Shown here one piece after another: positions 1,536-7,834 of a DNA stretch of 48,068 bases (within the stretch, counting starts at the first letter, position 1; every line of letters begins with the position of its first letter). Source of the DNA: Minisyncoccota bacterium (lineage in GTDB: Bacteria; Patescibacteriota; Minisyncoccia; Phycocordibacterales; Phycocordibacteraceae). The position numbers were made by a program, and so were the translations under genes. Under the pieces are notes generated by a model. The model saw only the letters and a list, made by a program, of their open reading frames with translations. It was not told the DNA's origin and did no database searches. The stretch lies in the NCBI GenBank assembly GCA_028695415.1, contig JAQVIY010000002.1, positions 68,883-116,950 on the forward strand. Reading direction: 5' to 3'.

Positions 1536-1622
1536 CCGCCCGTCAAGTCAAGGGAGCTGGGGGTGCCCGAAGGTCTGCCTCGCGCAGGACTACGGCAAAT
1601 TCAGTGACAAGGACTAAGTCGT
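1536..1622 (+). rRNA. rrs: 16S rRNA exon B (helix 44, about E. coli 1399-1498)
   Basis: CCGCCCGTCAAGTCAAGGGAGCTGGGGGTGCCCGAAGG...GTGACAAGGACTAAGTCGT. Confidence 0.93.
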
Positions 1623-2400: not shown

Positions 2401-2440
2401 AACAAGGCACGGGTAGCGGAAGCTGTTCGTGGAACATATC
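2401..2440 (+). rRNA. rrs: 16S rRNA exon C (helix 45 and 3' tail); 3' end not definable
   Basis: AACAAGGCACGGGTAGCGGAAGCTG keeps the h45 GGAA tetraloop. The following TTCGTGGAACATATCC replaces the expected GG-TGGATCACCTCC. Confidence 0.7.
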
Positions 2441-2639
2441 CAATTTGGAATCGCTATTGCCCGAAAGGCGTAGCATGTCGATACGATTCGCAAGAATCGT
2501 TGGAGATAGCAGTTGTCCATAAACACTGCTCGAGCGCCAGGGAACGTAATCTGGTGGTCGGTTGAGAGCCACATATGAGCTCTCAACTGGGACAGAATAG
2601 GCGGAACAAAAGAGCGCACACAAACATCTTTTCAGTGAC
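2441..2639 (+). other. Structured non-coding region downstream of h45 (spacer RNA, 3' trailer or unresolved insertion)
   Basis: Several local hairpins: GCTATTGCC-CGAAA-GGCGTAGC, CGATTC-GCAA-GAATCG, CGCCAG...CTGGTG, GTTGAGAG...CTCTCAAC. No convincing ORF. Confidence 0.45.
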
Positions 2640-7162: not shown

Positions 7163-7834
7163 ATGGGAACACTCTCAATCGTTGCGACGCCTATAGGCAA
7201 CTTAGAGGACATCACGCTTCGTGCGTTACGGACGCTCAAAGAGTGCGACGTTGTGTATGCCGAAGATACCCGCGTCATCGCGAAATTGCTCGCACGCTAC
7301 GAGATTAAGAAGCCTCTCCGACGGCTTGATGCAGCGACGGAGACGGAGAAGGCAGAGGAGGTTGTCGCACGGCTCGAAGCAGGCGAACATGTCGCATACG
7401 CTTCAGATGCCGGTACGCCCGGCATCTCTGACCCCGGACAGCGGCTGGTAGCACGCGTGCGCGAAGCAGTACCTGAAGCGAAAGTAGAGGCAATTCCGGG
7501 AGCATCGGCACTTACTGCCGCGCTCTCAATCGCAGGACTCGCCACGGGCGAGTTCGCCTTCCTCGGCTTCTTGCCGCACAAGAAGGGGAGGCAGACCGCG
7601 CTTAGAAATATCAAGGAGAGCGGCATACCGATCGTGCTCTATGAATCGCCGCATCGCATTCTGAAGTTGCTTGAAGAGGTGGGGGCGCTCGGTATCGCTC
7701 GGGTAACTATCGCTCGCGAGCTCACCAAAGTGCACGAAGAAGTCCTTTCCGGTCCGCCGGGCGAATTGCTCGAACACTTTACGGCCAATCCGGACACGGT
7801 TCGTGGCGAATTTGTCGTCATTGTAGAGCCTTGA
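7163..7834 (+). CDS. rsmI: 16S rRNA (cytidine1402-2'-O)-methyltransferase
   Basis: GTLSIVATPIGNLEDITLRALRTLKECDVVYAEDTRV; SDAGTPGISDPG; ARELTKVHEEVLSG. Confidence 0.95.
   Translation: MGTLSIVATPIGNLEDITLRALRTLKECDVVYAEDTRVIAKLLARYEIKKPLRRLDAATETEKAEEVVARLEAGEHVAYASDAGTPGISDPGQRLVARVREAVPEAKVEAIPGASALTAALSIAGLATGEFAFLGFLPHKKGRQTALRNIKESGIPIVLYESPHRILKLLEEVGALGIARVTIARELTKVHEEVLSGPPGELLEHFTANPDTVRGEFVVIVEP

Follow-up and report, generated by a model that had tools for sequence, protein, structure and literature searches.

The stretch of DNA analysed here (the window, 48,068 nucleotides; G000:C2:68883-116950) belongs to a Minisyncoccota bacterium with a genome of 728 kb, whose assembly is rated 96.8% complete and 0.3% contaminated. 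The host is a very small bacterium of the candidate phyla radiation (CPR), and its sole 16S rRNA gene, the only one found in a genome-wide search, is cut by two unrelated introns. All features described below lie on the + strand. The window opens within the 16S gene: the 3' part of exon 1 (positions 1-698, E. coli ~690-1398) matches the Rfam model RF00177 with 629 bits, maps base-exactly onto E. coli rrsH and is mostly 93-98% identical to same-genus relatives. It is followed by intron 1, a group II intron of 837 nt (699-1535), an 87-nt exon 2 that corresponds to the decoding-site helix of 16S rRNA, helix 44 (h44; 1536-1622, E. coli C1399-U1498), intron 2, a group I intron of 778 nt (1623-2400), and exon 3, the 16S 3' end with helix 45 (2401-2436, E. 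coli 1499-1534), placed by rrsH mapping and intronless relatives. The difference in class between the two introns is a distinction that an earlier note on this DNA did not draw.

A pairwise alignment of the spliced exons with rrsH of E. coli K-12 equates position 698 with A1398, 1536 with C1399, 1539 with C1402, 1622 with U1498 and 2401 with A1499. Intronless relatives read TTGTACTCA-CCGCCCGTC and, further on, AAGTCGT-AACAAGG, with no insert at either junction. Because these relatives read straight across, both junctions are base-exact, and the intron positions 1398/1399 and 1498/1499 given in the earlier note hold to the base (A1398/C1399 and U1498/A1499). The same alignment bears out its statement that the exon carries C1402, the equivalent of which is window position 1539.

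The assignment of exon 2 to h44 draws on the rrsH alignment, on intronless relatives and on pair covariation. One intronless relative has an h44 with 97.7% identity to the 87-nt segment, and a search for h44 hits exon 2 separately, at the place where it lies (36.1 bits). The h44 pairs covary across 12 relatives, spliced or intronless: for example, G-C at pair 1405-1496 gives way to A-U, and both strands of the apical helix vary. In the standard E. coli model, basal h44 pairs link 1399-1402 with 1500-1504. These basal pairs span exons 2 and 3, and therefore exon 2 comprises the hairpin from about C1404-G1497 upwards plus the basal 5' strand. Structure mapping agrees with the earlier equation of the exon with h44, as it puts the junctions at the two ends of the helix. 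An h44 exon between two inserts has been assembled independently in more than 10 other genomes, and hence the arrangement can be put down neither to chance nor to faulty assembly.

At the 16S 3' end in exon 3, the anti-Shine-Dalgarno motif CCUCC is absent (window 2424-2450 reads GUGGAACAUAUCCAAUUUGG). Intronless family relatives have the same or a similar 3' end, and accordingly the loss of CCUCC seems to be a change of the whole lineage. The absent motif had raised the suspicion of a third intron near 2436, which was discarded, since intronless relatives have the same 3' end. Downstream of the 16S gene (2640-2799), a terminator-like hairpin is followed by tRNA-Ile(GAT) and no 23S gene; the sole 23S match lies ~13 kb upstream of the 16S gene on the same strand (G000:C2:51945-55488). 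Upstream of the window, at ~1824-1920 of locus L003, an insertion of ~87 nt relative to L024 is located near 16S position 170, and L032 carries a similar insertion at another point. Finally, the gene at 7163, which the earlier note had connected with the h44 exon, indeed encodes RsmI (TIGR00096, 217 bits). Of the 73 family genomes with both genes mapped, 57, intronless ones included, have rsmI 1-12 kb downstream of the 16S gene and on the same strand. The linkage reflects a conserved gene order irrespective of introns and was set aside.

Intron 1 is delimited by the intronless-relative junctions and is recognized as group II by a match to domains D1-D4 and by covariation in domains V and VI. 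The D1-D4 match scores 26.8 bits, below the family cut-off of 35, and copies at the same site in L042 (37.2 bits; intron 74% identical to intron 1) and L053 (35.1 bits) score above it. A group I assignment was rejected, as the core match is group II and the region yields no group I match; a search of positions 1440-1560 alone against Rfam returned a single chance riboswitch match. The intron ends in AU, and its group II 5' motif (GUGC, 708-711, continuing as GUGCU) is preceded by 9 nt of intron, a 5'-terminal linker that can be read directly at 699-707. Homologous introns at the same site possess a leader of similar length ahead of G(C/U)GC. An intron start at GUGC (708), with the 9 bases kept in the rRNA, was likewise dismissed, since the exon-intron pairing stops at 698 and the 9 bases do not occur in intronless relatives. 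This pairing comprises the last six bases of exon 1 (IBS1 UACUCA, 693-698) and EBS1 UGAGUA (868-873), which form six of six pairs; among the remaining group A introns listed, the equivalent EBS1 site yields 5-6 pairs.

Domain IV of intron 1 harbours a LAGLIDADG_1 homing endonuclease ORF of 152 aa with a single motif (1022-1480; Pfam PF00961, 83.8 bits), for which profile matches to solved LAGLIDADG endonucleases are obtained. The ORF lies between the D1-D4 match and domain V, and its stop codon falls inside the latter. The domain V hairpin (1472-1506; fold z = -3.9) features a 2-nt bulge and the triad CGC at 1474-1476. Across 24 same-site introns, its 14 pairs are formed in all 336 of 336 cells and 7 pairs are altered on both sides, and no shuffle matches either the percentage paired or the covariation score. 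Domain VI (1510-1535), supported by fold and covariation, contains a bulged A1528, which is the eighth base from the 3' end and sits where a branch point is expected (7-8 nt from the 3' splice site). In 15 copies, which were chosen for keeping the bulged-A form, 95% of the domain VI cells are paired, 7 of 8 pairs are altered on both sides and the bulged A is invariant. Most of the same-site group II introns L055-L068 lack this form of domain VI, yet have the 5' linker, and this set offers a natural comparison of branching and hydrolysis.

Intron 2 is defined by the intronless-relative junctions and by an RF00028 covariance match of 55.4 bits over 1614-2391 (cut-off 50), and it carries a terminal G at 2400. 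Its internal guide sequence UGUUGCGAC (1639-1647) forms nine of nine pairs with the ligated junction GUCGU^AACA. In P1, GCGAC pairs with the exon 2 end GUCGU, with U1498 in a G-U pair, and in P10, UGUU pairs with the exon 3 start AACA; none of 500 shuffles does as well. P1 folds in structure prediction, and GCGAC is present in most other introns at the 1498 site. The intron encodes a LAGLIDADG_3 homing endonuclease of 211 aa (1732-2367; Pfam PF14528, 58.5 bits in two stretches), and the reading frames of both intron ORFs are open. In mature h44, the exon bases of P1 (1618-1622, E. coli 1494-1498), which form the 3' strand of the decoding pairs, have 1404-1407 as their partners. As the same bases are used in both structures, P1 cannot coexist with the base of h44 until splicing has taken place.

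The guides of the two introns distinguish the available splice sites. The internal guide sequence of intron 2 forms five of five pairs with its own exon and one of five with exon 1, and EBS1 of intron 1 forms six of six pairs at its own site and two of six with exon 2. Given the different classes and the non-overlapping guides, each intron should use its own splice sites, and we predict that skipping of the h44 exon is rare.

The distribution of the two insertions was assessed by searching a model of h44 plus flanks in 106 genomes of the family and in 297 sampled genomes of the order, and by searching the same 297 genomes for the uninterrupted 5' and 3' junction patterns. Usable information at both sites was available for 226 order genomes, with G192 (divergent 16S) and G299 (contig end) set aside. 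The intact 5' junction is missing in 55 of these, the 3' junction in 18 and both in 9, and the bracketed h44 exon occurs in about 4% of the sampled order genomes. In related genomes each site is mostly filled without the other. The nine co-occupied cases compare with about 4.4 expected (odds ratio 3.5, Fisher p = 0.018, uncorrected for ancestry), an excess that arises partly from contigs ending at the intron; in some 5'-absent cases the contig begins with exon 2. Among the nine, G283 (L175, G283:C29) shares 16S-intron sequence identical at 1004 of 1004 nt with G099 (L173, G099:C1) from a different family; this identity across families suggests that G283 may contain a misbinned contig. Genome G022 (L042, L174) has two 16S copies with introns flanking h44 in both, the second of which ends at a contig edge inside the 3' intron.

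Two lineages of the 5' intron, termed A (this genome and G047) and B (G124 and G134), occur in the bracketed genomes, and both combine with diverse 3' introns. Lineage B is inserted one base upstream of the lineage A site at 1398/1399. The closest relative of intron 2 (87%) resides in G062, whose 5' intron is not of lineage A. Similarity among introns is also out of step with similarity among hosts as judged by RsmI: G047, which has the closest relative of intron 1, shares it at 85% DNA identity but has an RsmI that is only 58% identical, and G046, the closer host with an RsmI that is 79% identical, has a less similar intron (79%). This discrepancy fits horizontal homing. The closest intron relatives in named collections are from Patescibacteria, including Kaiserbacteria and Nomurabacteria. 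At nearly the same site a second group II lineage is found (L153, L071, L074, L156, L159, L152 and L160), which starts G-rich followed by GUGCGAUC and ends in AUA or AAA before CCGCCC. Members L071 and L074 match RF01998 with 53 bits, and the LAGLIDADG ORF of this second lineage, as measured in L070-L076, is ~33% identical to that of intron 1.

Taken together, it is very probable that two independent mobile self-splicing introns homed to highly conserved 16S stretches flanking h44, with the 87-nt exon as a by-product. The single filling of the sites and the combination of 5' lineages with varied 3' introns make a by-product of homing the best reading of the h44 exon. The group II ribozyme of intron 1 would find exon 1 through the EBS1-IBS1 pairing and, as its anatomy suggests, leave either through hydrolysis or through a branching reaction at the bulged A; a 5' linker is not typical of branching introns, which counts against this reading. 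The group I ribozyme of intron 2 would use a single guide sequence to align exons 2 and 3, and would presumably leave by guanosine attack after U1498. A whole 16S rRNA would require the removal of both introns, and the order of removal is probably free or simply led by transcription. The earlier note had proposed that 16S function depends on two splicing events in order. Two removals are indeed to be expected if the introns splice as their anatomy predicts, but the fixed order is unsupported, since the sites occur singly and the guides show no cross-recognition.

Other readings of the locus have to be weighed against this one. The inserts might be cut out, or kept, without ligation, such that the 16S rRNA would be split into two or three fragments, with h44 on its own as an 87-nt RNA. 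Bacterial 23S intervening sequences removed without ligation are described (PMC11270868), and h44 is a self-contained hairpin. Yet both inserts retain the parts needed for ligation, namely EBS1, domains V and VI with the bulged A, the P1/P10 guide and the terminal G, and the covariation argues that these parts are under selection. To our knowledge, the 16S region 1398-1408 is continuous in known ribosomes, which also speaks against fragmentation and leaves it a very improbable account. A non-functional locus, i.e. a decayed or chimeric 16S copy, would explain the odd structure, the 5' linker and the absent anti-Shine-Dalgarno motif. However, this is the only 16S gene in a genome rated nearly complete, exon 1 is conserved within the genus, the h44 pairs are intact and the identical arrangement recurs in other genomes; as the absent motif and the rsmI order are common to intronless relatives as well, decay is extremely unlikely.

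The two introns could also be functionally coupled. If splicing were ordered and served as a checkpoint of assembly, h44 could close only after the exit of intron 2, and intron 1 would leave in a fixed order relative to it. The competition of P1 and the h44 base for 1494-1498 and the slight excess of co-occupancy are in line with such coupling. This competition, however, is inherent to any group I intron at 1498 and gives no clue to when intron 1 leaves relative to intron 2. Most genomes that carry one intron are without the other, and the lineages assort freely, so that ordered splicing is scarcely to be expected. Somewhat less improbable, though still unlikely, is a version in which the intron pair renders formation of the decoding site dependent on splicing, with P1 occupying 1494-1498 and the two ribozyme classes preventing the skipping of h44, and thereby acts as an assembly checkpoint. 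The lineage is reported to lack many ribosome-assembly factors (PMC12641178). Independent homing remains the preferred explanation for the intron pair, and the anatomy of the gene indicates that the 16S rRNA of this lineage appears to need two ribozymes, one of group II and one of group I, that both act on this 87-nt exon.

Both insertion sites have been listed for CPR 16S genes by Tsurumaki et al. 2024 (PMC11270868). According to that study, site 1400 is occupied by group II introns with LAGLIDADG_1 ORFs and no reverse transcriptase, the 3'-most site (1498) by group I introns with LAGLIDADG_2/_3 ORFs, and inserts in CPR rRNA are removed from the transcripts (PMC11270868). Judged by position and ORF type, the site of intron 1 is the published 16IS9 ("position 1400") and the site of intron 2 the published "position 1498"; both positions and ORF types recur here. 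Since both sites are published, this gene is a clear further example rather than a new system. The published sites were located relative to E. coli and, as the authors state, may differ from the spliced regions; the main text makes no mention of helix 44 (PMC11270868). In contrast, the present gene provides base-exact junctions, guide pairings and both sites filled in one gene. Beyond these, the analysis adds covarying domains V and VI with a bulged A beside a 5' linker, the mutual exclusion of P1 and h44, and occupancy counts. The interrupted sites are spanned by 16S primers near 1392-1407 and 1492-1510, and such genomes will be missed.

A bacterial rRNA mini-exon between two self-splicing introns has a precedent in the 23S gene of Coxiella burnetii, where a 34-nt exon sits between two group I introns and was seen to be skipped (Raghavan et al. 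2007; Hicks et al. 2011, cited in PMC11270868 and PMC10136302). Skipping at short exons flanked by two group I introns is documented for the Coxiella 23S gene and for phage Twort (PMC10136302). At the locus described here, self-splicing is read from the sequence, and the combination of a group II with a group I intron, unlike the two group I introns of Coxiella, should prevent skipping.

The 5' linker has a parallel in mitochondrial rRNA group II introns, which likewise possess extra bases ahead of GUGYG at the 5' splice site. Li et al. reportedly described these 5' insertions in 2011, and the insertion is said to go along with loss of the branch-point A; they are also discussed in PMC13190283. 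Unlike those introns, lineage A keeps its bulged A.

A further counterpart of intron 1 is the bacterial group II-LHE family rns-1396 of group IIC, which is named for E. coli position 1396 and described as occurring only in Thiotrichaceae (Liu et al. 2026, PMC13190283). Like that family, intron 1 is a group II intron in the 16S gene near 1396-1399 with a single-motif LAGLIDADG ORF in domain IV, a 5' linker and IBS1 recognition (PMC13190283). Unlike that family, it resides in Patescibacteria and is inserted at 1398/1399 (lineage A) or one base upstream (lineage B) rather than at 1396, although naming conventions may differ. Salman et al. 2012 is said to be a further source for rns-1396. These features point to an intron that would work like the rns-1396 family, and we do not file it as a member. 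In domain V, the CGC triad points to group IIC. Patescibacteria or Candidate Phyla are not mentioned in the description of the family (PMC13190283). The survey shows that group II introns with LAGLIDADG ORFs, whose bacterial range was described in 2026 as limited to Thiotrichaceae, occur commonly in the present CPR order.
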